DNA of 64,000 nucleotides from contig NZ_CP054051.1 in NCBI RefSeq assembly GCF_013372265.1, positions 124,001-188,000 on the forward strand, read 5' to 3'. Each line of letters starts with the position of its first letter. Position 1 is the first letter of the stretch. Position numbers and translations under genes: made by a program. The notes below the pieces were generated by a model, which worked only from the letters and a program-made list of their open reading frames with translations, made no database searches and was not told where the DNA came from. This DNA comes from Aliarcobacter cibarius. Lineage in GTDB: Bacteria; Campylobacterota; Campylobacteria; Campylobacterales; Arcobacteraceae. Below are positions 43,640-64,000 of this stretch, piece by piece.

Positions 43640-43975
43640 CTAAATTCCATTATTATTTAATAAGTTTTTTTCATAGATTTCATCAATAACATTCAACAAA
43701 GAAGAAGCTATTGCAATAGCTTCTTCTCTACATATTGTACTATCTGAATAGTGAGATGAAATATTTCCATAAACTCTAACTATAGAAATATAATTTTTAG
43801 CAGTATCACTTAATATGCCTTTCTCATGGAGTTCATACACAGCTGTTGATAGAGACATTCGTAATGGTCTTCTTCCTATTTGTTCCTCATAAACTTTAAA
43901 AATGATTTTTTCTGTAACCTTTCTAAATTTAGTTCCTATTGTATCTAGGTCATCAAATAAATTCTGAAATCTCAA
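43640..43975 (-). CDS. DUF4145-like domain, probable frameshifted C-terminus of the next gene
   Basis: 111 aa from a TTG start, with no good ribosome site. The core VRVYGNISSHYSD fits the DUF4145 pattern RxxGNxxxH, an HEPN-like helical fold. The same frame is open upstream to 44122 with coding-like sequence (EIFQEDLKNNLEVQNTSIIK) that overlaps the end of the 220-aa membrane protein in another frame. Removing one A from the AAAAA run at 44102-44106 joins the two into TM-loop-TM-coil-DUF4145, the architecture of the 267-aa protein at 49903-50706. It is probably not an independent gene. Confidence 0.55.
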   Translation of the reverse strand: MRFQNLFDDLDTIGTKFRKVTEKIIFKVYEEQIGRRPLRMSLSTAVYELHEKGILSDTAKNYISIVRVYGNISSHYSDSTICREEAIAIASSLLNVIDEIYEKNLLNNNGI

Positions 43976-44054
43976 TGTATTTATTGGAGGATTTAAAATA
44001 GCATCGTATTTAGTAATTTTATCTTTGATAATAGAAGTATTTTGAACTTCTAAA

Positions 44055-44717
44055 TTATTTTTTAAATCTTCTTGAAATATTTCTTTGATTTTTGAATCTT
44101 CTTTTTCTTGAAAGCCATAGAATCAAATATGTAAAAATTGCAAAACCAATTACAGGTCGACTTCGATACCAATAAGACGTATTAAAACTTTTTAACGCTT
44201 CTTTCAATCCATCTTCATATGTAATGCTAATAATATCCTTAATTGAAAAAGTCATACTTCTAAAAATTGAATCCAGATATAAATATTTATCAAAAATTAC
44301 TTCAGAATGATATTCGTAACCTTCATATCTATTGTTTTGAAGTAAACTAATATTTATATCAGATTTTACTACTTTATCATTCAGTTCTCTTTCTTTTGGG
44401 ATTATTTCTCCATTTATTGTTAATTTGTCATTATAATATGCGTTTTTGCCAAAATTAATTATTGTAAGCTCTAATAATTCATTACATTCATCAACTTTCA
44501 TTCCATTTTTTTTACAATACTGTATTTGTTCTTCTAATATTATTTTTAATTGCCTTACATCTCTTTTACTACTTCTATCAACATGAGAATAGAAGTAATA
44601 ATTATTTATACCTGTTAAAATAGCAATTAAAAAAACAAATATGCTCCAATAAAAATATCTATTTCTTAAACTTAGCTGTTCTTTAATCTTTTTAAATATA
44701 CTTTGCTCATTATTCAT
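44055..44717 (-). CDS. Two-helix membrane protein, probably truncated by a frameshift
   Basis: 220 aa: an N-terminal membrane helix (about 19-40), a ~145-residue periplasmic loop with two cysteines (YCKKNGMKVDECNELL) and a second helix (about 187-207). It ends in a basic tail created after a frameshift in the A-run at 44102-44106. The restored protein would continue into the DUF4145-like domain at 43640-43975. It lies 79 nt after the caspase stop on the same strand and is probably the last gene of the FtsZ-like/protease operon. Confidence 0.62.
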   Translation of the reverse strand: MNNEQSIFKKIKEQLSLRNRYFYWSIFVFLIAILTGINNYYFYSHVDRSSKRDVRQLKIILEEQIQYCKKNGMKVDECNELLELTIINFGKNAYYNDKLTINGEIIPKERELNDKVVKSDINISLLQNNRYEGYEYHSEVIFDKYLYLDSIFRSMTFSIKDIISITYEDGLKEALKSFNTSYWYRSRPVIGFAIFTYLILWLSRKRRFKNQRNISRRFKK

Positions 44718-44796
44718 TGTTTACTGTTTCCTTTATATTAAATATTTTTTTATAATTAAATACTCAATTTACATCTTTTTAATTATAAACTTCTTT

Positions 44797-47700
44797 TTAT
44801 TTATCATCAGACAAAATAAAATTTTGATTCAATTTTACTTGAGGTCTTTGCTCAAAATGAAATTTTTCTTGAGTAATTTTAGGAACTAATTCTGTAACAT
44901 GTTCAGATAATACATTTACTTTAAGTGTTTGATTTTTATCAAAAGCATCTAGTACACTATATGTAAATACTCCATGATTGTTATAACCCTCAAGTGCAAC
45001 TTGTTCTGAACTACTTGCAACTATATAATTTATACTATTGTTATCATGAGATAATCTATTTGTAGTTGCATTATCACTAATATTTTCAATTACTGCTCCA
45101 CTATAACAAGTATCTAACATAACTAATGACTTATTTGTATAATTTGCTATTTTTGCAAGATTTTGTTTAATATTATCTATTGAAATTTTTTCATCAATTT
45201 TATAAGGTATAAATTGATATTTTCCATCTTGAATTGTTCCATGACCTGCTATATAAAGTACAAAAGTGTCATTTATTTTTAACTTTTTAGATATTTCATC
45301 AAAGATTTTATCGATATTATCTTTTGTTACTTCATTATCTTGTAGTTTATATGTAAAAATATTTTCAAAGGTATTTTTACTATTTTTTACAAACTTTTCT
45401 TTTACTGATTCTACATCATTAACAGTATATTTTAAATTATAATTTTTATCTTCATACTCAGCAACTGCAAGTGATAAAAAATAAAGATTTGATTTTTCAA
45501 GTACAATATTGTTGTTTTCAGTTTCTAATTTTTTAATATCATCAATAGACATATTTTTTGATTTTTCTATTATTTTATAATCAGCAGTTACTTCAAGTTT
45601 ATCACTAACATTTGCAATATTCATATCTTTATCATAGGCTTTAAATTCAATTGTACTTTTACCAGGATATAAAGTATGAACACTTTTATAAATCTTACAT
45701 TTATCATTTTGATTATCTATTTGCTCAATTGAAAAACCTCTACTTTGAGGTGGATTTATTGATTGTCCATTGATTATAAGTTTTGCATCTGCAATTCCAT
45801 TACCTGCATCACAAACTTGATAAGTAAGTTCAATATCTTTTGCATTTATCATTTTATTTATTAAAATTTTTAATTCAGGAGGCATAATATTTAATATTAC
45901 AGATTTTACATCCATTGGAATTTCTACTTTTTCACCTGCAAGTATTTTTTTAATTAAATCAGGTCTATAAAATTTTTCAAATAATCTATCATTTTCAATT
46001 ATCTTAGCTTCTTTATATAAGCCTTGATTTTGATGATATTTTAATAAATCTTTTCCATTCCCACCATAAGTAAATAGACCTTCTGGTGTATATATAATCC
46101 AATCATTTTCATTTTGAATGTATAAAGATAATTGAGGATATATTATTTCTTTTTTATGCATAAAAAGTTGAAAAAAGTTTTTAATCTGATCTTGAGTAGG
46201 AGTAAATGATAAATTATAAGTATTTCTTAAATTTTCAAGATCTTCTTCTCCAAAATTTAGGAAATTTTCTATTATAGTATCTTTATCATCACCAAATTGC
46301 TTACTAAAGCCTTCTAATACTTCTTTATCAAATTCATTTTTAACATATTTTAACTTACTTAAAATATCTAAATTAAAAATATGAATAATATTATCTAATC
46401 CTGTATATACTAATTTATTATTCTTAATATCTATATCTTTTGGAAAAGCAGAAAAACCTTGTAAATTTGCGATTATTTCACCCTTATCATTCAATATTGG
46501 CATAAATGTAATATCTGAAGTTATTAATAAAATATATTTATCTTTTATTGGATATGAATTTAATAATTTAGTATCTCCCACTAAAAAATACTCTTTTTTA
46601 TTTTTTGTTTTCATATTTACAAATTCTATAACTTTTCCATCGTATTTTTGATTTATACTTAATGAAGAAGTACTTTTATCATCTGATGTTATTGATTTAT
46701 CTTGTTCATTGAATATTAAATTTTTAAAATCAAACTCTTTAAATTTATTGTTTATTTTTAACTCAAGATTATCTTTAGAATTTATCTTTGCATTTTCAAT
46801 ATTTATATTATTTTTATTCTCGAAAATCTTTTCAGCATGAGTTCCGTTAAATGACCTAAAATTTGTTTGAAAATTAAAATCCTCAATTAATATATTTCTA
46901 CTTAAATTTATAGAAAATTTATATAGTTTTTTATCTGTACTTACTACATTTACAACATAATCATCTTTTTCTTTAATAATATTAGCCGCTAATAAAATAA
47001 TAGGATCCCCTAAATTATAATGCTGAATCTCATTATTTTCAGTATTAATTATATTTATTAAATTATTATTGTTAATCGCAACTATAAATTTACCATCATC
47101 AGAAATTGATAAGTATATATTTTTAAATGCTATAATATTTTTTAATGTTTTAATTATTTTTCCACTTTGTATGTCTATACCATGAATTAAATCATTTTTA
47201 CTCATATCATTTGTACTATTTAGAGTACTAAAATACAGTATGTTTTTATTTTCATCAAAAACAATTTGTAGTGGATTACCCTCTAACCCTGAAGAAATCC
47301 AAGGTCTAAATTCTTTTAAAAGTGATAAATTATTTTTATCATACATTTTTATTGATTTATCATTAACACTGAAAAAGAAATATTTTTTAGTTTCTAAAGC
47401 AGCAATTACTTGTTCTTTTTTTGTAAAATTATTTATTATAGGGAAAACTTTTTCATCTTTTATATCTAATTTTTCAAATAATTTTAATCTATATTTTAAT
47501 TCTTCTTCTTTTTCGTTGATATGTTTTAAATCTTCTTTTTTATCAAACTCATAAGAAATATCTGAAGATTTTTTTCTAATTTCTATAGCTTTATTTAAAT
47601 CTTTTGATAAATAATCTCCTTTTTCATACATATAAGATAAAGTACGATAACAACTACCAAGATTATTAGCTTTTGGATTATTTTCTACTATTTGATTGGC

Positions 47701-48633
47701 TATCTTAAAAGCTTTCTCATAGTCTGGTTTTTCAGTTCGTAAGTTCATTAGATTTAAATAATATGAGCTTAAGTTACATCCCATCTCAAAATTCTTATTT
47801 TCATAATATGCCTTTTCTAAAAATAATTTTAAATTTTTAAAATCTTTTTTTTCCTGATAATACATATAAAGAGGTTGATAAGCTAATTCTAATTTTAATT
47901 CAACTCCTTTTTTCAACCAATCTAAATATTCCTCATCAGAAAGAATATTTCTTATACCTTCTGAATAAATAATACTTAATATTCCATCTTTATCTCCAAA
48001 CTCTACTGATTTAACATAAAATTCATAAGCTTTTTCATAATCACCTATATTTTCATAAGCTGAAGCCATTCTATAATAAATATTACTAGTCATTTTATAA
48101 CCAGATTTCATATAAATATCATAGTATATAATTGCTTCTTTATAATTTTTAATTTCAGTTGATGATAAAAAAAATGCTAATTCAAGAGTTGCATTTAAAT
48201 CACCTAAGTCATGTGCATTATTTAGCCATCTTTTTGCTTCTTCGAAATTTTCTCTCCTAATATAATATGTTGATAAATTCAACATACCTTTTGTATTTTC
48301 TAAATCTACAGATTTTTTAAAGTAATCAAAAGCTTTCATCTCATCATTTCCATTCGCATATATAAGCCCCAAAAGATTAAGTCCAGAAGAATTATTTTTA
48401 TCAGCTGATTTTTTTGCATATTCAAAAGCTTTTTTTAAATCTTTTTCTACACCCATTCCATAAAAATTAGCTTTTCCAATATAATATTGAGCTTCTGCAT
48501 CATCTGGAAATTTCTGAAATATATCAATAGCTTCTTTGTATTGTTGTTTATTATCAAATAAATCTTTTGCAAATTCGATAGTATTACCCAATAAATGGAT
48601 TGTTAATAAAATTAATATAAATATTTTTTTCAT
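44797..48633 (-). CDS. Exported caspase-family (C14) protease with Sel1/TPR and propeller-like regions
   Basis: 1278 aa with signal peptide (1-18), so predicted periplasmic or surface. Residues 20-360 hold Sel1/TPR-type repeats (AQYYIGKANFYGMGVEKDLK, SGLNLLGLIYANGNDEMKAF). Residues 400-770 form a beta-rich, propeller-like region. The last ~230 residues are a caspase domain with the dyad His in YIAGHGT (about 1131) and Cys in LDTCYSGA (about 1175), then a substrate-side strand IVASSSEQVALE. Its start overlaps the trypsin-like gene by ATGA. Bacterial caspases usually act in the cytoplasm, so export is unusual. The substrate is unknown. Confidence 0.85.
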   Translation of the reverse strand: MKKIFILILLTIHLLGNTIEFAKDLFDNKQQYKEAIDIFQKFPDDAEAQYYIGKANFYGMGVEKDLKKAFEYAKKSADKNNSSGLNLLGLIYANGNDEMKAFDYFKKSVDLENTKGMLNLSTYYIRRENFEEAKRWLNNAHDLGDLNATLELAFFLSSTEIKNYKEAIIYYDIYMKSGYKMTSNIYYRMASAYENIGDYEKAYEFYVKSVEFGDKDGILSIIYSEGIRNILSDEEYLDWLKKGVELKLELAYQPLYMYYQEKKDFKNLKLFLEKAYYENKNFEMGCNLSSYYLNLMNLRTEKPDYEKAFKIANQIVENNPKANNLGSCYRTLSYMYEKGDYLSKDLNKAIEIRKKSSDISYEFDKKEDLKHINEKEEELKYRLKLFEKLDIKDEKVFPIINNFTKKEQVIAALETKKYFFFSVNDKSIKMYDKNNLSLLKEFRPWISSGLEGNPLQIVFDENKNILYFSTLNSTNDMSKNDLIHGIDIQSGKIIKTLKNIIAFKNIYLSISDDGKFIVAINNNNLINIINTENNEIQHYNLGDPIILLAANIIKEKDDYVVNVVSTDKKLYKFSINLSRNILIEDFNFQTNFRSFNGTHAEKIFENKNNINIENAKINSKDNLELKINNKFKEFDFKNLIFNEQDKSITSDDKSTSSLSINQKYDGKVIEFVNMKTKNKKEYFLVGDTKLLNSYPIKDKYILLITSDITFMPILNDKGEIIANLQGFSAFPKDIDIKNNKLVYTGLDNIIHIFNLDILSKLKYVKNEFDKEVLEGFSKQFGDDKDTIIENFLNFGEEDLENLRNTYNLSFTPTQDQIKNFFQLFMHKKEIIYPQLSLYIQNENDWIIYTPEGLFTYGGNGKDLLKYHQNQGLYKEAKIIENDRLFEKFYRPDLIKKILAGEKVEIPMDVKSVILNIMPPELKILINKMINAKDIELTYQVCDAGNGIADAKLIINGQSINPPQSRGFSIEQIDNQNDKCKIYKSVHTLYPGKSTIEFKAYDKDMNIANVSDKLEVTADYKIIEKSKNMSIDDIKKLETENNNIVLEKSNLYFLSLAVAEYEDKNYNLKYTVNDVESVKEKFVKNSKNTFENIFTYKLQDNEVTKDNIDKIFDEISKKLKINDTFVLYIAGHGTIQDGKYQFIPYKIDEKISIDNIKQNLAKIANYTNKSLVMLDTCYSGAVIENISDNATTNRLSHDNNSINYIVASSSEQVALEGYNNHGVFTYSVLDAFDKNQTLKVNVLSEHVTELVPKITQEKFHFEQRPQVKLNQNFILSDDK

Positions 48634-49913
48634 CTAAAACTTGTCACCCTTTCATAAGAGCCATCTTCATCTGTATCATAAGCTATAATATCCCAAATAC
48701 CATCATTATCTATATCTTTCATCATAGCATCTGGAATACCATTTTTATTTCTATCAATTTTTGCAAGTTTTATATTTTTATATAAACCTTGCTCTATAAT
48801 TTTATTTTTATATTCATCAGCATTTTTCTTTTTCACTATTACGCTATCTTTTGAATCAATGAAATTTTTTATATCAATTACAGATATTCCAAAATTTAGA
48901 TTTTCTCCTTTTTTATTTGAAAAAGCTCCAATTCCAATCAATTCTAATTTATCATTTACAATTGGACTTCCAGAATTACCTTTATTTGCATTCATAGAGT
49001 ATTGTAGTATGTAATCAGCTTTATATTCATCCCAACTATAATCATTTAAAATATTTGTTAACATCCCATATTCAAATGCAAAATAATATCCAAGAGGATG
49101 TCCCATATTATAAATATTCATTCCTTTTTTTAATGAATCGATATCTGCTAGTTTTAAAGAAATATAGTCATTTTTACTAATCAAATCTTTAGGCATTTCT
49201 AATAATGCTAAATCTTTTGTCATATCTACTTTTACAACTTTAACTTTATAATAATTATTATTCGATGGCTTATTTCCTAGTTTTGGTTTAAATGCGATAT
49301 AAACATTTTCTTTATCTGGTTCTACAACATGATAATTCGTTAAGATATTTTTGCCATCATTTATAACCACACCTGCACCAATGGAATTATCCGATTTATT
49401 GTTAATAACTACCGTTGATGATTCAAGTTTAGGAATGATAATATTTGCTTCTTTTTCACCCCTATCATTTGAAATAATTTTTGATTTATCTACATAAACT
49501 CTTTCATCTTTTTTTATATTTTCTTCATTATTTATTAAAGTTTCATGTTTTGGATTAGTATTTAATATAAATTCTTTTTGATATGATTTAGACTTAATTA
49601 GAAAAGTTAATGTGCCAATCTCATCATCTAAAATAATATATTTGTTAGATTGTGGATAATCTTGAGCAATATCTTTTTTTAATTCAATTTTTTCTAAAAG
49701 CTCCAATTTATTTTTATTAGTTTTATAAAAAATTTCTAAAACTTCGTCTTTATTAGATTTCATACTAAACTTTAATTTGTCATCTTTAAATACTATATCG
49801 TTATTTTCTAATCTATAAATTGAATCATTTTTATTTAATTCTAAATTTACTTCAACTTTTGCAAATAAACTTGAACACAATATAAAAAATAAAATGAATT
49901 GTTTACTTATCAT
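48630..49913 (-). CDS. Exported trypsin-like protease with DUF4384-like and Ca-binding parts
   Basis: 427 aa with signal peptide (1-18). Residues 25-120 resemble DUF4384, a beta domain often found with caspases. A trypsin fold follows with His195 in LTNYHVV, Asp234 in KDLALLE and Ser314 in KGNSGSPI. There is no PDZ. The C-terminus (about 388-423) contains DRNKNGIPD, DIDNDGIWD and DTDEDGSYE, calcium-binding thrombospondin-3-like loops. The start lies inside the upstream DUF4145 gene (11-nt overlap) and the stop overlaps the caspase start. It could activate the caspase by cleavage in the periplasm; this is inference. Confidence 0.85.
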   Translation of the reverse strand: MISKQFILFFILCSSLFAKVEVNLELNKNDSIYRLENNDIVFKDDKLKFSMKSNKDEVLEIFYKTNKNKLELLEKIELKKDIAQDYPQSNKYIILDDEIGTLTFLIKSKSYQKEFILNTNPKHETLINNEENIKKDERVYVDKSKIISNDRGEKEANIIIPKLESSTVVINNKSDNSIGAGVVINDGKNILTNYHVVEPDKENVYIAFKPKLGNKPSNNNYYKVKVVKVDMTKDLALLEMPKDLISKNDYISLKLADIDSLKKGMNIYNMGHPLGYYFAFEYGMLTNILNDYSWDEYKADYILQYSMNANKGNSGSPIVNDKLELIGIGAFSNKKGENLNFGISVIDIKNFIDSKDSVIVKKKNADEYKNKIIEQGLYKNIKLAKIDRNKNGIPDAMMKDIDNDGIWDIIAYDTDEDGSYERVTSFR

Positions 49914-50706
49914 TATTTAATCCTACCAAAAGATTTTGAGTTTTAAATATTTCTAATAGTGCAACTAAAGTACTTAATACTAATAAGGCATCTTTTGAAG
50001 TAAATATGATTGGTTGTTTTATACTTGGATGAGCTACCCTATTTCCAAAAGCTTTTATAGTGTGTGCATAGCTTTTTGTTTGGTGAGTTAAAATCTCTTT
50101 TTTGAATAATAAATAAATCATTTTATTTAAAGATTCTTCTTCGATTTCATTTACTTTGCAAATATTTAAAAGTATTTTTTCTAAAACAACTCTAGCATTA
50201 AATAATACATAATTTGTATCTGTATCAATTCTTTTATCTAAATTTTCTAATTTTATTTCAGGATTAATTATATTTTCATATTTTTTGAGTTCAACTTCAA
50301 TATCTTCAAATATATTTATTTTTGATTGAATTCTTTCTTTTTCTATTTTCAATTTTTCATCTAACATCTCTTTTGAGATTCTACTTTTCTCTCTATATGT
50401 AAAAAGCATAGATAATCCAATTGAATATATAAGTAAAAATATCATCAAAATATTTGTGTCTTTTGAAAATAAATTTGAGATAATGTTATTCTTTTCAGGT
50501 TCTAACTTTGCATTTATATCTGGGAATTCATAAGTATCTAGTTTTTTTTCACCATTTTGATAACTATATTTTTCAAAGGTATTTGTATTTTCTTTTTTTT
50601 CTACATATATTTCTTTTGTATTATTAAAAAGAAATGAAAATATTAATATTGAAATAATAATAACAGTCCAATAAACGAATGGATTTGAGAAGTTGATTTT
50701 AAACAT
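49903..50706 (-). CDS. Membrane protein with cytoplasmic DUF4145-like domain
   Basis: 267 aa: a membrane helix (about 12-28), a short periplasmic part with PxxNAKLEPEKNN, a second helix (about 85-103), a charged coiled coil (105-150) and a C-terminal DUF4145-like helical domain (about 160-255) with IKAFGNRVAHPSI. The usual Arg of RxxGN is Lys here. DUF4145 is HEPN-related, but RNase activity is not clear. Same architecture as the frameshifted pair at 43640-44717. Second gene of the operon after the FtsZ-like gene. Confidence 0.72.
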   Translation of the reverse strand: MFKINFSNPFVYWTVIIISILIFSFLFNNTKEIYVEKKENTNTFEKYSYQNGEKKLDTYEFPDINAKLEPEKNNIISNLFSKDTNILMIFLLIYSIGLSMLFTYREKSRISKEMLDEKLKIEKERIQSKINIFEDIEVELKKYENIINPEIKLENLDKRIDTDTNYVLFNARVVLEKILLNICKVNEIEEESLNKMIYLLFKKEILTHQTKSYAHTIKAFGNRVAHPSIKQPIIFTSKDALLVLSTLVALLEIFKTQNLLVGLNNDK

Positions 50707-50791
50707 ACATACCCTAAAAATAATTAAATATAAAGTTATCTATTGTATCGATATTCTTCTTATTTTCAATTTTTTGTTAAAGTAATATTTA

Positions 50792-51481
50792 CTAAATCAT
50801 CAAATTTATCTTGTTATTAAGCAAGTTAAATGACTCTTTCATACTCAAATGCTCAAAACTTTTTAACTCATCATTTTCTATTTCTATAATTGATACATTT
50901 TTTAGTTGCTTTAAAAAATCTATTGTTTCATTTGCTCTATTACTTTTTTTAGAACCTTCCCAAGAAAATGGTTTTACTAAAATACATTTAACTATGATAT
51001 TTTTATTTGATAAATATTCTGCTATTGCTTTTGTAGAACCACTACCAACTCCACCACCTAGAGTTGCTATTAAAGTTATTGATAAATTTTCATTTATAAA
51101 ATTATCAATTTGATTTAATACATCCTCTGTAATTAAAGAAAATCCACATTTTTCATTAGAACCACAACCTAGATTATCAGGTTTTTTAAGATATATTTTA
51201 TTTTTTACTTTTTTTTGTTCTAAGGCTCTTTTATCGCTATTTATAATTAAGCTTTCATATTGATTTGCCAGATATTCAACTATATTAGAACCTCCACCAC
51301 CAATACCTATGATTTTTTTCTTTTCACTGTATTGTTCTTGCTTTTTCTTAATGAAATAATTTTTGATTTTAAAATAATAGATATTTTTAAAATCTTGATA
51401 AACAGATTTTAGACCTTTATATAATAGATACAAAAATATAACAACTGTAAAAGTAATTATAATAATTGATAGATTATCCAC
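50792..51481 (-). CDS. Membrane-anchored FtsZ-like GTP-binding domain lacking T7
   Basis: 229 aa with a GTG start (GGA 9 nt before). A membrane helix (5-23) and a basic linker precede an FtsZ/tubulin-type nucleotide domain: IGIGGGGSNIVEY (58-70), IINSDKRALE (79-88), NLGCGSNEKCGFS (103-115), tubulin signature GGGVGSGS (142-149), VKPFSWEGSK (169-178) and IENDEL (201-206). The protein stops at the end of helix H7, so the T7 loop and the C-terminal domain that complete the GTPase between FtsZ subunits are absent. A +1 reading near 50800 would change only the last ~10 residues. First gene of a long same-strand run to 44055. Confidence 0.85.
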   Translation of the reverse strand: MDNLSIIIITFTVVIFLYLLYKGLKSVYQDFKNIYYFKIKNYFIKKKQEQYSEKKKIIGIGGGGSNIVEYLANQYESLIINSDKRALEQKKVKNKIYLKKPDNLGCGSNEKCGFSLITEDVLNQIDNFINENLSITLIATLGGGVGSGSTKAIAEYLSNKNIIVKCILVKPFSWEGSKKSNRANETIDFLKQLKNVSIIEIENDELKSFEHLSMKESFNLLNNKINLMI

Positions 51482-51508
51482 ATTTATTCCAATAATTAAA
51501 ATATAAAT

Positions 51509-51531
51509 AAGTACAGTAAAATACTGTACTT
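51509..51531 (-). terminator. Hairpin between the repeat-peptide gene and the FtsZ-like gene
   Basis: Perfect inverted repeat AAGTACAGTA / TACTGTACTT with a 3-nt loop, 12 nt after the repeat-peptide stop and 28 nt before the FtsZ-like start, followed on the minus strand by a T-rich tail. It could end the first transcript or be an operator for the FtsZ-like operon. Confidence 0.55.
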
Positions 51532-51543
51532 AAATATTATGTT

Positions 51544-51858
51544 TTATCTTCCTATATATTCACCATTTGGAGCTAAACTAGAAGAACTACCACTTTGATA
51601 ACTTCCATCTGGTGCCATATGATATGAACTTCCACCCACATAGCTTCCATCAGGTGTCATAGTTGAAGTGCTACCACTATTATACGAACCATCAGGAGCC
51701 ATATTATAAGTGCTACCACCAACATAATTTCCGTCTGGTGTCATTGAATATGTACTTCCACCAACATAATTACCATCGGGGGTCATAGTATAATCACTTG
51801 CATTTGCACCTAAACATAATCCTATTGAGATTAAACTCATACTTACTATTTTTTTCAT
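51544..51858 (-). CDS. Exported peptide of six TPDGxY repeats
   Basis: 104 aa: signal peptide (1-20), then six tandem repeats of 14 residues with core Y-x-M-x-P-D-G-x-Y-x-x-G-S-x (for example MTPDGNYVGGSTY). The repeats are near-identical at the protein level. It resembles short-repeat exported proteins found across Proteobacteria whose function is not settled. It is small enough to be a surface or matrix peptide. It has a shared-type promoter and stands next to, but separate from, the FtsZ-like operon. Confidence 0.75.
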   Translation of the reverse strand: MKKIVSMSLISIGLCLGANASDYTMTPDGNYVGGSTYSMTPDGNYVGGSTYNMAPDGSYNSGSTSTMTPDGSYVGGSSYHMAPDGSYQSGSSSSLAPNGEYIGR

Positions 51859-54391: not shown

Positions 54392-55378
54392 TTATTCTAC
54401 TAATCCTTCAAGTGGTGGAATAAACCTAATATCTGTTGTTCCACAATATTCAAATACCTGAGAACCTGGATAGTATTTGATATGAAATTTTGCGAGTTCT
54501 TTTTCATACTCTTTTAAATATTGTTTAGCAGATGTTACTTGCCTTGGTGTTTCACATGGATAATTTATAGTTTCAAGAAGCTGCATTAACTTTATTCTTT
54601 GAATATTATCAGCACTAGCATCATGAGTAATAAAAAACTCAATTATTGACCTAATAAATGCACTACCCTTGCCTCTTATACTGATCAAATCATCAAATCG
54701 TTTATTATAATTTATTGACATTGTTTTATTAAAATATTCTGAATATAATGAAGATAAAATAATAACATATGATTGTTCTTTTGAACTATATTTCATCTCT
54801 TGAATAATATTGTAGCTAGAGCTTACTCCTGAACCATTATTATCGCTTCTTACAATTACAACGTCTTTTATATATTCTATTGCTTCTTGAATGTTTTTTT
54901 GAGTTTTACCACTCCATTCCAATCCCAACTTTTGGGCAATTTCATATATACTAAAATAAATAGCTATATTTCCTTTATAAAGAACTGATCTTGCAATATT
55001 ATTAATCATTATACAATCTAATATCATTTTATGATACTGTGTAAGTAGCCTATTTCTAATTTCTACAGTTCCAAAAGCTGTTTCTCTTCTTAAAATATTT
55101 TTATTTGCAACAAACTCTTTAGCTAGAGCACTATTATGAGATATTTTATCAACAGGCATAAATGGACTAACTCTTAAATCCATAAGAGTCGCTGTTGATT
55201 CATTTATCTTTTGTTTTGTATCAAAGAGGCTGTATTGAATTTGACTCTCATCAGGTAAAAAACCTACTTTTTCTTTAGGTACCATCTTCTTAATAAATTT
55301 TGGTTTTATTTCATCATTTTTTTGTACAGCCATGATTTTCCCTTGTTGTATATTTGTAAAACTTTTATCATAATTCAT
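54392..55378 (-). CDS. Probable plasmid replication initiator
   Basis: 328 aa. Composition and spacing fit a winged-helix initiator: IYFSIYEIAQKLGLEWSGKT (about 143-162), then YVIILSSLYSEYFNKTMSIN and ISIRGKGSAFIRSIIEFFI, as in initiators that bind iterons. It overlaps the downstream helicase gene by 11 nt and lies in the same operon as ParB and ParA, 3.5 kb from the iteron cluster. The family (RepC/TrfA-like versus Rep_3) is not settled from sequence alone. Confidence 0.7.
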   Translation of the reverse strand: MNYDKSFTNIQQGKIMAVQKNDEIKPKFIKKMVPKEKVGFLPDESQIQYSLFDTKQKINESTATLMDLRVSPFMPVDKISHNSALAKEFVANKNILRRETAFGTVEIRNRLLTQYHKMILDCIMINNIARSVLYKGNIAIYFSIYEIAQKLGLEWSGKTQKNIQEAIEYIKDVVIVRSDNNGSGVSSSYNIIQEMKYSSKEQSYVIILSSLYSEYFNKTMSINYNKRFDDLISIRGKGSAFIRSIIEFFITHDASADNIQRIKLMQLLETINYPCETPRQVTSAKQYLKEYEKELAKFHIKYYPGSQVFEYCGTTDIRFIPPLEGLVE

Positions 55379-56585
55379 CTACTTCTGTTGCTTCAATATC
55401 CCCAAGCAGTGGTACTGAATATTTTTTAGGCACTCTTTTTTCAGTTTCTTTGTAAGGAATAACTTCAACTTTTACATCAAAAAGCTTAATAATATAATCT
55501 TTTTTGTCATTAGAAAAATGATTTGTCTTATCTATAACTACTTTTCTACTTCTTGAATCATTTTCAACTTTTTCAATCACATAATGCATTCTACAAGCAT
55601 CAATAAAAGCACTTGCTCCTCTTGCAGTAGTTTTACTTGTTCCACTTGCCTTTGAATGATGGTGTATTAAAATAATTGTTTTATTCTCGTCTACACACCA
55701 TTTATTTAATAAACTCATAAAAAATCTTGCATCTGCATTTGAATTTTCATCAGCACCAAAGAAAGCTATAAGTGGATCTATCACAATTAATGAAAAATCT
55801 TTTAATTGCTGTTTCATTTCTTCAAATTTTGTATTAATATTCAAATTTTTATCAACAAAATGAAATACTTGCGTCTCTTTTCCTAAAACAGAAATTCTTT
55901 GATTAATAGTTAAATTATGATGGACTTTACAAAGACTTAGTGCTCTTTTTTTTGATACCCCTATTTCATCTTCACTTAGCCATAAAAATGCCCTATTCTC
56001 TTTATATTTTGAAATGTAGTTCAAAGCTAAATATAATGAAAGATAACTTTTTCCACTTCCACCAGCAGCACTTATGATATTTATCTCATTTTCTTGAATT
56101 GGCAAAACATCTTCTAATAGAAAGTTTGGTGTTTTTTCTTTTACATTTGAAAAATCTACAAGATTAAATAGTTCTTGTCTTTTAAAATCTCTACTTCTTA
56201 TTATTAAATCTTGTAGTTCATTTATTTTATCAATACTATTTGAATCTGAACTAGCTATCTTTCTTAATTGATCCTGCAAAAATATTTTATAATTATTTTC
56301 TTGTAATTCATTGTAAATAGATTTTATTTGAGTTAGTGGATTAGTTGTTATGATATTTATTAATGTTTGTTCATAGCTATTCCCTAGCTTTGCAACTATT
56401 GCTTCTTCATTAATTGGGAAATTATTTTTATTTAACTCTTGCATAACATCAAATATATTTTTATATTGTTGATTTGAAAATATATTTTCTTTTACATCTT
56501 TGATAGTATTATTATCAAATAAAATTGTAGAGAGAATCCCTCTCTCCATACTATCTATAAAAGTTAAATCTAATTTATTAAACAT
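55368..56585 (-). CDS. RepA/DnaB-type replicative helicase (AAA_25)
   Basis: 405 aa. An N-terminal DnaB-N-like part (RGILSTILFDNNTIKDV, about 15-31) is followed by a RecA-fold ATPase: Walker A ISAAGGSGKSYLS (about 170-182), Walker B LIVIDPLIAFF and a conserved LIHHHSKASGTSKTTARGAS block like RSF1010 RepA. It would unwind the origin after loading by the initiator. The gene order initiator-helicase-ParB-ParA supports a self-contained replicon. Confidence 0.82.
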   Translation of the reverse strand: MFNKLDLTFIDSMERGILSTILFDNNTIKDVKENIFSNQQYKNIFDVMQELNKNNFPINEEAIVAKLGNSYEQTLINIITTNPLTQIKSIYNELQENNYKIFLQDQLRKIASSDSNSIDKINELQDLIIRSRDFKRQELFNLVDFSNVKEKTPNFLLEDVLPIQENEINIISAAGGSGKSYLSLYLALNYISKYKENRAFLWLSEDEIGVSKKRALSLCKVHHNLTINQRISVLGKETQVFHFVDKNLNINTKFEEMKQQLKDFSLIVIDPLIAFFGADENSNADARFFMSLLNKWCVDENKTIILIHHHSKASGTSKTTARGASAFIDACRMHYVIEKVENDSRSRKVVIDKTNHFSNDKKDYIIKLFDVKVEVIPYKETEKRVPKKYSVPLLGDIEATEVDEL

Positions 56586-56596
56586 ATGCCCTACTT

Positions 56597-57484
56597 CTAG
56601 TTACTATTACTTAATATGATTTTTTTAATATACTCTTCTATATTTTTAGAATCATCTAATTTAAAAACACTCATATCAATCTCTATTTTTAGCTTATTTT
56701 TTTTACTTTCTATATCAACACCTGTAATAAGTGGTAATTCAAATGGATAAGTTTTTATTTTTTGAGTTTTATTTTTTTTACTATTTTCTTTATTTTTATT
56801 TTCTGTGAACTCTTGAAGTTTATCTTTTATCTCTTTGTGTGTTAAATCATTTTCGATTAATCTTAAAATCAATTCATAATGTTCTAGAGTAGGGCACTTT
56901 AAAATATTGTTTAATATAGCTGTATTTTTTAGTTTATTCTCTTGAATTAACAATTGGCATTCTTCGGAAAAATTACTCAGATTAATTATATCTGCAATTG
57001 TTGTTTTTGATTTTCCACTTAGTGCAGCTATATCTCTATAACTTTTATTGTACTCTTCATTTAATTTTTTAAAAGCATTCGCTTCCTCAATCAGTGTTAA
57101 ATCTTCTCTTTGTAAATTTTCTATTAAAGATAATTCTCTTAATTTTTCATCTGTTATATTGTATAAAAGATTTGCATCTATATATTCTAATCCTGCTATT
57201 TGGTGAGCTCTTAATCTTCTCTCTCCTGCTATTAAAATCAGTTCATCATTTATTTGTGCAACTGTAATAGCTTGAATTAGGCCATTTTGTTTTATTGATT
57301 CTGCTAAATCATTTAATTTTTGCTCATCAAAATATTTTCTAGGTTGAAAAGGGTTTAATTTTATTTCAGAAACTTTCAATCTACTCTCTTTTACATTTGC
57401 TTGTGCAATGTTTTTATTTGATTGTGCAGCTGCTGCTAATTTAATTTGTTCCAACTTAGATAAAGGTTTGTTTTGGTTACTCAT
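56597..57484 (-). CDS. parB: ParB-family partition protein
   Basis: 295 aa. ParB/Srx N-terminal region with LKVSEIKLNPFQPRKYFDE (30-48) and the CTP-binding block LIAGERRLRAHQ (about 88-99), then the helix-turn-helix KSYRDIAALSGKSKTTIADI (about 141-160) that binds parS. The C-terminus is a charged dimerisation part. It forms an operon with ParA, 41 nt apart, the gap holding one TGTCCG/CGGACA dyad. It partitions the element at cell division. Confidence 0.9.
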   Translation of the reverse strand: MSNQNKPLSKLEQIKLAAAAQSNKNIAQANVKESRLKVSEIKLNPFQPRKYFDEQKLNDLAESIKQNGLIQAITVAQINDELILIAGERRLRAHQIAGLEYIDANLLYNITDEKLRELSLIENLQREDLTLIEEANAFKKLNEEYNKSYRDIAALSGKSKTTIADIINLSNFSEECQLLIQENKLKNTAILNNILKCPTLEHYELILRLIENDLTHKEIKDKLQEFTENKNKENSKKNKTQKIKTYPFELPLITGVDIESKKNKLKIEIDMSVFKLDDSKNIEEYIKKIILSNSN

Positions 57485-57500
57485 AAATTCCTCTTTTTAC

Positions 57501-57517
57501 TGTCCGGAGAACGGACA
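57501..57517. promoter_or_regulatory. TGTCCG-N5-CGGACA dyad, candidate parS or ParA operator (site B)
   Basis: Palindrome TGTCCGGAGAACGGACA in the 41-nt gap between ParA and ParB, identical in both arms to the dyad upstream of ParA. Confidence 0.6.
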
Positions 57518-57525
57518 AAATATTT

Positions 57526-58593
57526 TTATTGTTCTTTTAATGCTTCTTTTTCTAATATTTTTGTAACTATTTCATTTGTTAAAAGCATATAAGCTTTAGT
57601 TGAATCATGTTTAAAATCTGTAAAAATCATTGCGCCTAAACCTAATTGCGATTCTCCAACTTTTTCATAGTGAGATATTTGAGTATCAAATATTTTTGCA
57701 GTATTGTTTGTTATTTGCATAAGATTTAAATTATCTTGCTCTATTATTGCTTTATGAAGTGATGAAGTTCCAATATCTCCAACAATACCACCTAATACAA
57801 ATAAATCTTTATTTTTTCTCATTCGATAGCTTCTACTTATTGCTTTAATTGGAGCAAAAACATCAGGTACTCCAATTGAAGAGTAGGGCTCTGGTTTTAA
57901 TGAAATAATGAAATAGTCACTTGCCATTAAACAAGTTCTTAATATTGTATCTGTTCTTGGAGGAGTATCAATTATTATAAAATCATAATCATTTTTGATA
58001 AATGATAATATATATTCTAAACTATCTTCTGTATTTGCTAAATCATCTAAGTATCTAATTTTGTCAATCATTTTTGGATCGTTTGGTAAAATATCTAACT
58101 TTCCTGTAATTTCTGGTCTTTGTACATTTACAATTGATTCTCTAATATTTTTTTCAAATTCAACATCTGATAAATCTTCTTTTATGTTCAACATCAGTTG
58201 TATAGTATTATTTTCAACTAAATCATATTGATTTTGAAAAATTCCAAACCCTTTTGTAGCATTTCCTTGTGGATCAGCATCAATCAAAAGAACTTTGTAT
58301 CCATAAAATGCCAAAGTTGCACTAATATTTTGAGTATTAGTAGTTTTTAATACTCCACCTTTATGATTTCCTATTGATATAACAATACAACCAGGAGCAA
58401 GCTCTTTTTTTGCTTCAACTAGTTCTAAAGTATCTCTTAAACAACTTGGAATGTAATACTTTTTTGTAGATTGAAAATGTGGTAATTTTCCTTCATCTAA
58501 AAGTTGTTTAATTTTTGTTTCAGATATACCAGCGAACTCACTATATTTTTGTTTACTTAGATATTCTACAGAAGATATATTTTCAATTGACAT
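57526..58593 (-). CDS. parA: ParA-family partition ATPase with N-terminal HTH
   Basis: 355 aa. The N-terminal ~60 residues are a MerR/phage-type helix-turn-helix (KYSEFAGISETKIKQLLDEG), as in type Ia ParA proteins that repress their own operon. The deviant Walker A is GNHKGGVLKTT (about 77-87), followed by DADPQGNATKG and FIIIDTPPRTD. It moves ParB-bound DNA along a nucleoid gradient. A TGTCCG/CGGACA dyad lies 17 nt before the start and is the likely autoregulatory operator. Confidence 0.93.
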   Translation of the reverse strand: MSIENISSVEYLSKQKYSEFAGISETKIKQLLDEGKLPHFQSTKKYYIPSCLRDTLELVEAKKELAPGCIVISIGNHKGGVLKTTNTQNISATLAFYGYKVLLIDADPQGNATKGFGIFQNQYDLVENNTIQLMLNIKEDLSDVEFEKNIRESIVNVQRPEITGKLDILPNDPKMIDKIRYLDDLANTEDSLEYILSFIKNDYDFIIIDTPPRTDTILRTCLMASDYFIISLKPEPYSSIGVPDVFAPIKAISRSYRMRKNKDLFVLGGIVGDIGTSSLHKAIIEQDNLNLMQITNNTAKIFDTQISHYEKVGESQLGLGAMIFTDFKHDSTKAYMLLTNEIVTKILEKEALKEQ

Positions 58594-60455: not shown

Positions 60456-60788
60456 ATGGAAAATAAAAACAATGATCTTAATGAAGAGGATTATCAAGTA
60501 ATTCTTTCTAAAACTGGAAAAATAAAAAGTGAAGTAAGATTTTTTAGTGTTAATGAAAATATGTGGCAAATATTAGCTGATGATTATACTAATGAAACAT
60601 CTGTTGCAAAAGGTTTATTGGTTAAAGTTGAGTTTAATTCTACAGTGAATGCTAATAGTTTTAAAGATTCAATGATTTTAGTCGATGCTTTAACTGAAGA
60701 TTGTGATCTGATTTTTGAATCATCTATAAATGAAGATATTCCAAATGAGACAATCAAGTGTACAATGTTATTTTCAGGTATAGAGTAA
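60456..60788 (+). CDS. Hypothetical 110-aa protein
   Basis: Acidic, cytoplasmic, mixed strands and helices (ILSKTGKIKSEVRFFSVNEN, GLLVKVEFNSTVNANSFKDS). No family recognised. It has its own ribosome site (CACAAGGA, 11 nt before the ATG) and lies 83 nt before the WYL gene on the same strand. Could be part of the accessory cargo that starts here. Confidence 0.6.
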   Translation: MENKNNDLNEEDYQVILSKTGKIKSEVRFFSVNENMWQILADDYTNETSVAKGLLVKVEFNSTVNANSFKDSMILVDALTEDCDLIFESSINEDIPNETIKCTMLFSGIE

Positions 60789-60871: not shown

Positions 60872-61798
60872 ATGAACTTAAACAATAGAGTAGAAAGAAT
60901 AAAAGCTATATTAGATTTGTTAAATCAAGGATATAATCTTTCAACACCTAGTCTTGTTGAAAGATTTAATATTTCTAAAAAAATCATTCAAACTGATTTT
61001 AAAGATTTTATTCTTCCTTTACTACCTAATGAAACAATCTATTATGATTACTCTTCAAAAACATATAAAGCTAAAAACAATTTTTTATCTAAAACTCTTT
61101 TTAACTCAAAAGAGTTAGCAATTATTGCTGTATTAAAAAATAAATCTACTGATAAATATAGTGATCATGATTTAAAAGCTAATGTTGATAAACTATTTTT
61201 TAAATTTGAAAAAGAACTATCTAATCAACTTTACTCTAAATCTTCTGTTGAAAAAATAGATAAGTTTCAAAATGAATTAATACAATTAGAAAATGCTATC
61301 GAGAATAAAAACATTGTTAAATGTTTTTATAATAATAAATATAGAGAAATATACCCTCTTAAAATCTTAAATCTTGAAGGATATTGGTATTTAATAGTTT
61401 TTGAACCTCAAGATAAAAAGATAAAAACATTTCACCTTAACACTATCAAAAAGATTGAAGTATTAAATGCAAACTACAAGTTTGATAAAGAGATAGTAAA
61501 AACATTTGACAATGCTATTACAGCTTACTATAAACCTGAGAATGAACCAATAACTGTAGAACTATTTATAGATGCAACCGTGTCACGGTATTTTTTACGA
61601 AAACCTCTTAATCCTACTCAAAGAGTTATCAAAAAATATGATCATGGTTCACTTGAACTTGAAATCATCATAACAGACTTGATGGAGATAATTCCTACGA
61701 TACAAAGATACATACCTTTTGTTGGAATAATCACTCCTGATGAGCTAAAAATTGAGGTTAAAAACAACATTGATTTGTATCTCAAAAGGTTTGAGTGA
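60872..61798 (+). CDS. WYL-domain transcriptional regulator (308 aa)
   Basis: N-terminal winged helix (NRVERIKAILDLLNQGYNLS, then FNISKKIIQTDFKDFI) followed by a WYL domain (about 145-205; NIVKCFYNNKYREIYPLKIL, then GYWYLIVFE) and a WCX extension with PITVELFIDATVSRYFLRK. The layout is that of WYL regulators that control defence and mobile genes. It precedes a two-gene coupled operon and is its likely regulator. About 79 nt separate it from the next gene. Distinct from the 430-aa WYL protein at 33781. Confidence 0.85.
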   Translation: MNLNNRVERIKAILDLLNQGYNLSTPSLVERFNISKKIIQTDFKDFILPLLPNETIYYDYSSKTYKAKNNFLSKTLFNSKELAIIAVLKNKSTDKYSDHDLKANVDKLFFKFEKELSNQLYSKSSVEKIDKFQNELIQLENAIENKNIVKCFYNNKYREIYPLKILNLEGYWYLIVFEPQDKKIKTFHLNTIKKIEVLNANYKFDKEIVKTFDNAITAYYKPENEPITVELFIDATVSRYFLRKPLNPTQRVIKKYDHGSLELEIIITDLMEIIPTIQRYIPFVGIITPDELKIEVKNNIDLYLKRFE

Positions 61799-61877: not shown

Positions 61878-62528
61878 ATGTCTATTGTTGAATACTATCA
61901 ACAGCAGTTTTCAAAGGATTTAATTAACTTAATGAATTCTCATGAATTCGCAAAAGAGAGGATTTCGATTGTTAGTTTAGTTGATGATATGTCTGCACCG
62001 GACCATTATGGTGTAGTAAGAGATGAATTCAATAGAATTCAGAAAAAGCAATTTTTTCTTTTTAGCTTCTTTTTTTCTGTTTTAATAGATCAAGCCATTC
62101 ATAGTGCTGCAAGACATTTACATCAAGATTTCCAAAATATTGCTCAATATCCTAAGTTGGTTGGTATTTTATCTAGCTACTGGTCGAATCTTCATCCTTC
62201 ATTATTGCTAATCGCTTCAATAAAACATACTGAGAATTTAGAAACTACAGAAAATTACTTTGAAGATTTAGCGAAATTTATTTTAAATGATTACCAAAAA
62301 TTCTTTTATTGTCAATTTCCAAAATATACCAAATTATTGTATTCAAATGAGGAAATAAAGTTTAATTTAAACAATATTTTTAATGAAATTAGTAGAGCAA
62401 TGATATGGACTGATGTTCCAAAGTCTATATGGGCTTATCAATTAAATACAAATGAATTACATTCATATAAAACTATGATAGATATGTTAAATACTGAGTT
62501 AAAAAAAGTTGCAGAGGGGTTAGTATGA
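61878..62528 (+). CDS. Hypothetical 216-aa protein upstream of the repeat protein
   Basis: Helical, probably cytoplasmic, with aromatic-rich segments (KKQFFLFSFFFSVLIDQAIH, about 55-74) and the pattern IHSAARHLHQDFQNI that could bind a metal or nucleic acid. No family recognised. Its TGA overlaps the ATG of the next gene as ATGA, so the two proteins are made together. With the WYL gene upstream this looks like a small defence-type module. Confidence 0.6.
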   Translation: MSIVEYYQQQFSKDLINLMNSHEFAKERISIVSLVDDMSAPDHYGVVRDEFNRIQKKQFFLFSFFFSVLIDQAIHSAARHLHQDFQNIAQYPKLVGILSSYWSNLHPSLLLIASIKHTENLETTENYFEDLAKFILNDYQKFFYCQFPKYTKLLYSNEEIKFNLNNIFNEISRAMIWTDVPKSIWAYQLNTNELHSYKTMIDMLNTELKKVAEGLV

Positions 62529-64000
62529 GTAATTTATCTAAGTATTTATCATTTGATGAAGCAAGAAATTATGTTAGAAATCAAAATTTAGAAAACACTA
62601 GAGCTTGGAAAAAATGGTCAAATGGTACATTAGAAGGAAAGGAAAGACGCCCTGATTTTATACCTTCTAATCCTGATATAGTTTATAGAAATGATGGATG
62701 GATAAGTTGGAGTGATTGGATAAGTGAAAATATTGAAATAGAATATTTACCATTTGAAGAGGCAAGAGACTTTGTAAGAAGTTTAAATTTAGTAAATGCT
62801 GAACAATGGCAAAGATATTATCAAGGGAAAATAGATGGGTTAGTAAAACCTGATAATATTCCTTGGAATCCACAAAAAATTTATGCTGAACAGTGGAACG
62901 GAATAAAAGATTGGATAGGTACAGATTGGAAAAACTTTGAGGAAGCTAGAGAATTTGTTAGAAATTTAGGTTTAAATGGACAAGTTGAATGGCGATTATA
63001 TTGTAAAAATGAACTAAATGGCTATGAATCTAAACCTCTTGATATTCCAACAGATCCCAAAAGAGTTTATGAAGATAACGGTTGGATTGATATGTCTGAT
63101 TGGCTAGGCACTGAGAGAAAGAGAAGAACAACTCATGGTGAAGTTGACGATACATGGTTGTCATATGAAGATGCAAAGGAGTATGTTCACTCTTTAAAAT
63201 TATCATCATATGATGAATGGAAAGCATATATAGATAATAGAATCGAAAATTTGCCATTAAGACCTATGGATTTACCAAAATCACCACAATATGTATATAA
63301 AAATGATGGATGGACAAATTGGAGTGATTGGTTAGGAAATACAATTGATGAAGTGGCAGAACAAAAACACATAATTCATGAAAAACATTCAAATAAAGAA
63401 GTTCATGAGCATACAACAGTTGTTAGTTTTACTTTAGATCAACTAATAAAAGAGTATCAACGCAATGCAACAATAACTAAAATATTGCTATTTCTTAACA
63501 ATGAAAGTAGCTTTAAATCGATAATAGAGTTAGATTTAACTGTAAATGATATAAATGAAATTGAGGAGTTATTTTTCCATTTTAGAGGAGAACCAGGTAA
63601 GCTAACTCACACAAAAAAAGCATTTGTTGGATTAGTGTTTTTAACTTACGTAATTTATAAGCTTGAATCAAAACTTAGTTATTCATCACTTTGGAAAGCT
63701 ATTACAAGTGACTTGGAACATTATTCTTCAGTTACAAGACATTTTTTAGATTCATATTTTACAAGTCAAAATTATCCAAATTTCTTTTTAAAAGAGTCAA
63801 TAGAGTATGCATGTAATCTATTTCATCTTAGAAATAATTTTGATGCAAAAGATGAGCAGCAATATGTAAGAAATACTATATTGTTACAAATAGGGCTTTT
63901 AAATAAGAGCTTCGATCATTTAAAACTTTGGCTATCAAATTACAACCTACCGGTTATTGTTTCAGAATTGTTAGATGTAGATTCTCAAAATTACTCAAAA
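62525..64000 (+). CDS. Large protein with four integrase-type (INT_rpt) repeats, partial
   Basis: The frame starts at the ATG overlapping the preceding stop and is open to the window end (at least 492 aa). The first ~280 residues hold four repeats of ~65-70 aa with the pattern eeAr-fVRsLnL ... W ... P-D-iP-x-x-P ... Y-x-x-xGWxxWsDWLG (for example FEEAREFVRNLGLNGQVEW, then GWIDMSDWLG), which match the phage-integrase repeat unit seen in proteins of mobile and defence loci. The rest is helical and not recognised. No catalytic motif is visible in the part available; the 3' end lies outside. Confidence 0.75.
   Translation, partial: MSNLSKYLSFDEARNYVRNQNLENTRAWKKWSNGTLEGKERRPDFIPSNPDIVYRNDGWISWSDWISENIEIEYLPFEEARDFVRSLNLVNAEQWQRYYQGKIDGLVKPDNIPWNPQKIYAEQWNGIKDWIGTDWKNFEEAREFVRNLGLNGQVEWRLYCKNELNGYESKPLDIPTDPKRVYEDNGWIDMSDWLGTERKRRTTHGEVDDTWLSYEDAKEYVHSLKLSSYDEWKAYIDNRIENLPLRPMDLPKSPQYVYKNDGWTNWSDWLGNTIDEVAEQKHIIHEKHSNKEVHEHTTVVSFTLDQLIKEYQRNATITKILLFLNNESSFKSIIELDLTVNDINEIEELFFHFRGEPGKLTHTKKAFVGLVFLTYVIYKLESKLSYSSLWKAITSDLEHYSSVTRHFLDSYFTSQNYPNFFLKESIEYACNLFHLRNNFDAKDEQQYVRNTILLQIGLLNKSFDHLKLWLSNYNLPVIVSELLDVDSQNYSK

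Follow-up and report, generated by a model that had tools for sequence, protein, structure and literature searches.

Separate halves of FtsZ and a DUF4145-trypsin-caspase cassette on a mobile island of Aliarcobacter cibarius

We analysed a stretch of 64,000 nucleotides (nt) of the Aliarcobacter cibarius genome, called the window below (G000:C1:124001-188000, from a single-contig genome of 2.34 Mb; other loci and genomes are referred to by L and G numbers). The stretch is part of a plasmid-like mobile island, and two separate things are found in it: free-standing halves of the cell-division protein FtsZ, and a cassette of a DUF4145 membrane protein, a trypsin-like protease and a caspase. A sequence-only reading of the same DNA had joined one of the halves, encoded by ftsZL, and the cassette into a single operon. 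The FtsZ-like gene leads to a more interesting thing than the proteases do, namely mobile FtsZ halves beside defence regulators.

Two complementary halves of FtsZ

The FtsZ-derived genes and the gene upstream of ftsZL are as follows (lengths in amino acids, aa).

50792..51481, minus strand: ftsZL, 229 aa; one N-terminal membrane helix and the FtsZ N-terminal (GTP-binding) domain, ending in H7
51544..51858, minus strand: rep104, a small exported-looking repeat protein upstream of ftsZL, with a terminator-like hairpin after it
60456..60788, plus strand: FtsZ C-terminal domain gene, 110 aa, from about the T7 loop onwards; BLAST match to a relative in L117

As described in the sequence-only reading, ftsZL encodes an FtsZ-type nucleotide domain with an N-terminal membrane helix: the protein matches PF00091 above the curated cut-off (E 6.2e-18) and shows a single hydrophobic stretch at its N-terminus by hydropathy (19-residue window; no dedicated predictor). 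Its single-sequence structure model (mean predicted local distance difference test, pLDDT, 75) shows the FtsZ fold, in agreement with the tubulin fold anticipated there, and the top 50 Foldseek matches listed are all FtsZ, with a best E-value of 1.5e-10 and TM-scores by query of 0.53-0.61. A TubZ or PhuZ identity was rejected on these same 50 structural matches and on the absence of tblastn matches in phages and plasmids (below), no direct TubZ/PhuZ comparison having been run. In the alignment with host FtsZ, the T1 (GIGGGGSN), T4 (GGGVGSGS) and T6 (Asn-Asp, ND) motifs are kept and the protein stops within H7; of the features of canonical FtsZ it thus has the GTPase domain with T1, T4 and T6, and its chain includes neither a T7 loop nor a C-terminal domain. 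We conclude that ftsZL is half of a bona fide FtsZ, for which GTP binding is predicted from the motifs. The sequence-only reading had overlooked both the missing C-terminal half and the separate FtsZ C-terminal domain at 60456-60788.

Relatives of ftsZL with the same plan are found in L033 (88% identical), L034 (50%) and, in another family, L106 (38%); a copy of rep104 in L033 (90% identical) also lies upstream of the half-FtsZ. Short N-terminal-half open reading frames (ORFs) are found in 7 of the 104 genomes of the family, two of them (G001, G015) being fragments. The search for N-terminal halves across the order (398 genomes) was run at E 1e-22 to exclude true FtsZ, a threshold that diverged halves would escape. 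Tblastn searches of phages (at E 1e-3) and of plasmids (at E 1e-5) found no relatives of ftsZL, and scans of IMG/VR with ftsZL and caspase profiles gave pattern matches with no confirmed relatives among them, their reach being limited by short patterns.

The complementary half lies about 9 kb from ftsZL on the same island. It shares 29% identity over 109 aa (E 3e-15) with L117:1172-1540 of the G049 element, which is named FtsZ_C by Pfam (PF12327, E 5e-8), and matches L128-L132 at E 1e-15 to 2e-20. A two-sequence profile run over the 104 family genomes returned 16 short ORFs amid true FtsZ matches; after inspection, the C-terminal halves amount to 14 loci in 13 of the 104 genomes (12 besides the window genome; G008 has two), with L138 and L140 (226 aa, 42.7 bits) left out of the count. 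The 14 aligned sequences are 101-124 aa long and start around the T7 loop. Of the two T7 Asp residues, 11 sequences retain the first and 13 the second. A profile built from these sequences matches the complete L109 FtsZ over residues 219-332 (E 3.8e-22) and also host FtsZ (E 1.4e-21). PF12327 itself, scanned against 12 free C-terminal proteins, was above cut-off in four, sub-threshold in four and without a match in four, the window copy among these last.

Taken together, the FtsZ halves are a recurrent mobile family in Campylobacterota. They share with bacterial FtsZ (PF00091 plus PF12327) the T1, T4 and T6 motifs and the fold on the N-terminal side and the alignable C-terminal domain on the other, and the residues of both longitudinal FtsZ contact faces are largely kept. 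They differ from it in being single-domain proteins split at about H7, some N-terminal halves with an extra membrane helix, and in lying on mobile islands with a link to WYL regulators.

The divergent FtsZ-like families described by Makarova and Koonin in 2010, to which the sequence-only reading had likened ftsZL, do not fit, ftsZL being a truncated bona fide FtsZ without a C-terminal region of its own. Two such families, FtsZl1 and FtsZl2, are FtsZ-superfamily paralogues beside a normal FtsZ and have membrane themes as well, according to the available text of PMC2875224. Both have their own C-terminal regions in that account: FtsZl1, without recognisable T6-H7, is mostly found in operons with vWA proteins and is defined by this and by a coiled-coil C-terminal region, and FtsZl2 has a C-terminal region of about 300 aa. 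FtsZl1 was rejected for ftsZL, with no vWA match among the window proteins scanned and no C-terminal region, and FtsZl2 was rejected as the protein ends in H7 without the region of about 300 aa. Kaur et al. (2020) described rare FtsZ/tubulin domains in conflict systems, including MoxR-vWA and related ones (PMC7159879, available text). We note that L036:7213-12027 fits these: its product of 1604 aa has vWA-like and uracil-DNA-glycosylase-like regions on either side of a complete FtsZ, recognised by both half profiles, and an AAA+ (MoxR-like) gene lies next to it (names other than FtsZ by eye). The FtsZ there is complete and fused, in contrast to the free halves of the present case.

At two further loci an FtsZ gene and a C-terminal piece lie close together. 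In another family, both half profiles match a 337-aa FtsZ paralogue of L154 (G292). A 143-aa C-terminal half begins 5 nt after this gene, and then come a DUF2779-type gene, a second nuclease-like gene and a WYL gene 4.3 kb from the half (gene names except FtsZ and WYL by likeness to L034 and L129, not scanned). This locus was taken from a profile search of 218 order genomes in which, among the matches listed, true FtsZ dominates, and so no count of halves is given beyond the family. In L138:5576-9018 (G001), FtsZ stands next to FtsA and is followed by an insertion-sequence-like gene (by eye) and a separate C-terminal FtsZ fragment beside host FtsZ, an arrangement that shows one route by which a free C-terminal piece can arise.

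WYL regulators and a possible role of the halves

Downstream of the C-terminal half, the window ends in a module of three genes.

60872..61798, plus strand: WYL-domain helix-turn-helix (HTH) regulator, 83 nt downstream of the C-terminal half; PF13280 E 2.7e-8
61878..62528, plus strand: 216-aa protein of unassigned kind between the WYL and Druantia-type genes; no Pfam or PADLOC match
62525..64000, plus strand: start of a large protein of a Druantia-type locus, extending beyond the window end

The window WYL protein has a WYL match above cut-off and an HTH match below it, and with defence genes beside it this copy has the make-up of a WYL defence regulator. It is 78% identical to the WYL protein that follows the N-terminal half in L037. 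The large protein at 62525-64000 is in turn 86% identical over 488 aa to L037:11040-14612, and the next gene in the L037 copy is DruE by PADLOC (DruE3, E 4e-207). The large protein is followed in the window genome, too, by an ORF (L114:2099-6985) of the same length as the L037 DruE and with a near-identical opening (compared by opening residues only). As regards the complete gene set of a known Druantia subtype, PADLOC gave no match for the 1190-aa and 216-aa partners. Related WYL-Druantia modules are preceded by different halves, the C-terminal one in the window and the N-terminal one in L037.

As for the halves in general, 10 of 22 loci have a WYL gene directly next to the half on the same strand, as compared to 1.2 expected (none of 200,000 draws reached 10), and with L128-L132 collapsed to one this holds at 6 of 18 vs 1.03 expected (p 1.6e-4). 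The test used a WYL profile, with the other genes of the same loci as control and with loci found via the FtsZ half, not via WYL; it covers 22 of the 23 halves, with each of the window's two as an entry of its own, the fragment L035 left out and the decayed L038 and L106 kept. The half precedes the WYL gene in nine of the ten adjacent cases (in L139 the WYL gene comes first). The cargo behind the C-terminal half/WYL pair changes, from an SNF2-type helicase (L128) to a PD-(D/E)XK nuclease (L129) to the Druantia-type locus of the window. Among the matches listed in the open-access literature, there is no account of lone FtsZ domains with WYL regulators (subscription papers being mostly outside this scope).

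The reading that we favour, and to which we give slightly less than an even chance, is that the mobile half-FtsZ proteins dock on host FtsZ and so tie cell division to WYL-controlled defence. The N-terminal half would present the GTP face and the C-terminal half the T7 face, and with this face each would bind monomeric FtsZ or one of the two ends of the host's filaments. A docked half might then read or brake the state of the Z-ring, and via its WYL partner, division trouble (phage FtsZ inhibitors, DNA damage) could be coupled to the expression of the downstream defence genes. The two different halves in the same place of related modules suggest that what they share is a partner, FtsZ, and not a surface. 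The wider proposal, that natural split-FtsZ proteins serve mobile, WYL-controlled defence islands as interchangeable modules for sensing or braking, with the Z-ring as an anti-phage checkpoint, is more doubtful, and we advance it tentatively.

The position in a WYL-linked unit would also suit halves that are effectors: once released by the WYL repressor, they would cap host FtsZ filaments and stop division in infection, each half exposing one face of the longitudinal contact. There are precedents in toxin CbtA and phage Kil, which stop division via host FtsZ, and in phage Gp0.4. We consider an effector role rather unlikely: the half stands ahead of the regulator in all adjacent cases except L139 and stays in place while the cargo varies, which favours sensing or regulation.

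Immunity can use FtsZ as a platform, as the precedent of CapRel-Ebc indicates, which is activated by the complex of phage T7 Gp0.4 with FtsZ (PMC13423816, available text). What CapRel-Ebc shares with the docking reading is FtsZ as a sensing platform of immunity; it differs, as far as the same text goes, in using host FtsZ and a fused toxin-antitoxin effector, where here there is a mobile half. The same source describes FtsZ as commonly targeted by diverse phages and, together with Gp0.4, as a known trigger of defence; it also lends support to the idea that the halves are molecular decoys for phage FtsZ inhibitors, guarding the WYL switch. This appears quite unlikely to us, as the N- and C-terminal halves differ as domains yet hold the same place in L037 and the window, and binding to FtsZ itself fits better. 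Regarding the regulator, the window WYL protein resembles the BrxR/CapW type in being a WYL-HTH gene beside variable defence cargo, Druantia-type here (PMC9122601, available text); we liken it by type, with BrxR membership not asserted, and 'FtsZ' occurs 0 times in the main text of that paper.

Several observations weigh against the docking reading. ftsZL itself lies 9.4 kb from the nearest WYL gene, and 12 of the 22 halves have no directly adjacent WYL (7/15 C-terminal, 5/7 N-terminal), some of these (L134, L137, L108) near contig ends. The 216-aa gene has no counterpart between the WYL and Druantia-type genes of L037, which sets the two modules apart. The window C-terminal half has diverged too far for the Pfam scan to name it, has Asn at the first T7 Asp and gave a poor single-sequence model (pLDDT 58). 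Among the N-terminal halves, that of L033 has an internal duplication, and the shorter ones of L037 (158 aa) and L108 (170 aa) have neither the membrane helix nor the whole of the domain. L035 and L038 are fragments, and the C-terminal pieces in L106 lie in different frames.

The last observations, together with the internal duplication in L033, indicate decay at some loci, and one could take all halves for functionless, decaying fragments of plasmid-borne FtsZ paralogues. Sources for such fragments are at hand in the G049 element, which carries complete FtsZ and FtsA (and, by eye, a penicillin-binding protein, PBP, and FtsW/RodA), and in the FtsZ paralogue directly before the C-terminal half of L154. 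Against this stand the similar lengths and near-constant T7 residues of the 14 C-terminal halves, their repeated position beside WYL genes, and purifying selection in the pairs tested: the ratio of nonsynonymous to synonymous rates (dN/dS) is 0.16-0.47 over seven pairs, two with the window ftsZL (0.16 vs L033, 0.47 vs L034) and five C-terminal ones, all within L128-L132, with the window C-terminal half in no pair. General decay is in our judgement decidedly unlikely.

If the halves do bind host FtsZ, they would be ready-made, evolution-tested probes of both filament ends, and the connection recently found between FtsZ and phage immunity would extend to a mobile module whose C-terminal halves occur in 13 of the 104 family genomes.

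We also note that several FtsZ halves have an AAA+ ATPase of about 700 aa in their vicinity (L106:7835-9940, L111:13794-15884, L135:2-1399, which is cut, and L136:213-2345). In L106 its gene, IetA-like by PADLOC, overlaps the start of the half by one base.

The DUF4145-trypsin-caspase trio

Downstream of ftsZL on the same strand lie the three genes of the protease cassette and two further ORFs.

49903..50706, minus strand: DUF4145a, first gene of the trio; PF13643 E 9.5e-9
48630..49913, minus strand: trypsin-like protease; PF13365 E 4.7e-23; orthologues in L097 and L091
44797..48633, minus strand: caspase protein, 1278 aa; PF08238 (Sel1) and PF00656 E 2.5e-17
44055..44717, minus strand: tmB, membrane protein that may be the front of a frameshifted transmembrane DUF4145 gene
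43640..43975, minus strand: second DUF4145 domain, in another frame; PF13643 E 4.3e-5, 23.9 bits (cut-off 23.1)

The order and strand of the six minus-strand ORFs from ftsZL onwards are as the sequence-only reading had them, and its transmembrane DUF4145 protein, exported trypsin and exported 1278-aa caspase agree with Pfam and hydropathy; so do the 11-nt overlap of DUF4145a and trypsin (49903-49913) and the 4-nt (ATGA) overlap of trypsin and caspase (48630-48633). DUF4145a has two hydrophobic stretches and a borderline one at 232 (19-residue hydropathy window), and the N-termini of both proteases are hydrophobic and signal-peptide-like (hydropathy; no dedicated predictor). The trypsin-like protease has an Asp-rich, calcium-site-like C-terminus (by eye), and the caspase protein consists of an export-type N-terminus, Sel1/TPR repeats, a beta-propeller-like region (weak Pfam match) and the caspase domain. 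The catalytic residues reported for both proteases are there as motif strings, in the window and in the L097 relatives alike.

The trio is a real unit, as had been proposed, in that it recurs in L097 (a metagenome-assembled genome of Sulfurimonas sp.), where DUF4145 (L097:7831-8631), trypsin and caspase follow in the same order with 30, 34 and 48% identity and the first two genes overlap by 8 or 11 nt, depending on the start codon. The L097 element has a backbone akin to that of the window, and the two also have in common a WYL gene (45%), a PcfJ-like gene (34%), a 134-aa membrane protein (39%), an 89-aa protein (63%) and two small lipoprotein-like genes. L091 (same contig as L098) contains trypsin and caspase (the latter 47% identical) up to the contig ends. 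A caspase profile scan of 84,980 species genomes found these two loci, its reach limited by two short patterns. In 298 order genomes, the caspase has a match at E 1e-12 in 17, near full length besides the window only in G277 (= L091). Trypsin matches are found in 26 of 31 genus genomes; apart from the window's own, all listed are 28-32% identical and about 475-512 aa long, and we take them to be DegP-like. For DUF4145a, the 398 order genomes hold, besides the window, weak matches in four genomes only, in longer proteins. Plasmid records matched trypsin (11), caspase (5) and DUF4145a (0), none covering 80% of the query. What weighs against the trio as a unit is that its recurrence comes down to one complete relative (L097) and one cut by contig ends (L091).

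The sequence-only reading went further and placed ftsZL in the same operon, as a GTP-bound membrane scaffold governing a periplasmic trypsin-caspase cascade. The same strand and close order in the window genome are in its favour, and we now regard it as highly improbable. An 85-nt gap separates ftsZL from the trio, and an 11-bp terminator-like hairpin (51508-51532) lies upstream of ftsZL. The trio does not recur beside FtsZ-like homologues: around the seven other N-terminal halves, no homologues of trypsin, caspase or DUF4145a were found in the stretches fetched (that of L108 is a 4.2-kb contig), and L097 has the trio with no half-FtsZ match within its 23.9 kb. In L033 the rep104-ftsZL pair is followed by a WYL regulator, with no trio. 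A canonical FtsZ filament, moreover, requires the T7 half, which a lone N-terminal domain does not have. A promoter scan was uninformative (66 sites vs a mean of 80 in shuffles), and the hairpin ahead of ftsZL is the sole signal relied on here. The comparison thus gives separate units, and control of the proteases by ftsZL is not borne out; we are much surer of the composition and independence of the two units than of the docking mechanism proposed above for the halves.

The trio, then, is an independent protease cassette with export signals. Given the export-type N-termini and the catalytic motifs kept in L097, the simplest reading puts both proteases in the periplasm, where the Sel1/propeller caspase is probably processed by the trypsin. 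The DUF4145 membrane protein would be a partner and presumably has its DUF4145 domain on the inner side. The trio is in this respect a compact, uncluttered example of what may be a periplasmic protease cascade in bacteria. We take DUF4145 to be kin to HEPN ribonucleases, whose motif is R-x4-6-H. A ribonuclease of this kind was rejected for DUF4145a, as both it and its L097 orthologue have G-N-x3-H with no Arg at the motif place in the alignment.

Trypsin-like and caspase proteases are found in defence contexts in the caspase/trypsin conflict systems and caspase-nuclease (canu) loci (PMC7159879, PMC12799240, available text). The window proteases differ from these in their export-type N-termini and in the absence of a nuclease from the trio (by Pfam in the window, by BLAST in L097), and a canu identity was rejected as the caspase has no nuclease partner. 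DUF4145 occurs 0 times in the main text of PMC7159879. Among the matches listed in the open-access literature, there is no DUF4145-trypsin-caspase unit and no paper with all three terms.

For the second DUF4145 gene, described in the sequence-only reading as broken by a frameshift, the two frames (43640-43975, 44055-44717) are plain and the frameshift itself is likely rather than certain, because tmB has a relative, L116:8679-9539, that is complete as a protein and yet has no DUF4145 match. A different locus variant is seen in L095:8990-12004 and L096:6365-9955, which encode exported-looking caspases with a CHASE2-like membrane protein (by eye) instead of trypsin.

The island around the two units

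The plasmid-like character of the island is seen in the genes between the two FtsZ halves, and a further division gene lies at some distance.

54392..58593, minus strand: plasmid-type backbone, with a replication-like gene (by eye), DnaB-like/AAA_25, ParB and ParA (Pfam scan)
29357..30667, minus strand: second full-length FtsA gene; PF14450 E 1e-21

According to the Pfam scan of the window, ParA, ParB and the DnaB-like ATPase all fall inside 55368-58593, and 54392-55378 has zero matches, its replication-related look being a judgement by eye. Near ParA, the ORF of a long repeated unit at 58875-59558 looks, by eye, like plasmid iterons rather than a gene. The scan also found WYL regulators, in the plural, among the window proteins. 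At 33781-39995 there are conflict-type genes for an Ankyrin-conflict histidine kinase (PF22561) and an iREC receiver, and relatives of the pair are found in L033 and L110.

The element FtsA (29357-30667) is 43% identical to host FtsA. A second FtsA copy is found in two of the 104 family genomes, G000 and G049, and both elements also carry FtsZ-derived genes. The G049:C1 element has an accessory division gene set of FtsA (L110:17905-19227), a PBP-like gene (L109:6886-8037), complete FtsZ (L109:8165-9430) and an FtsW/RodA-like gene (L110:19273 onwards), the PBP and FtsW/RodA names being given by eye. Its PcfJ- and MYG1-like genes are related to the window's own.

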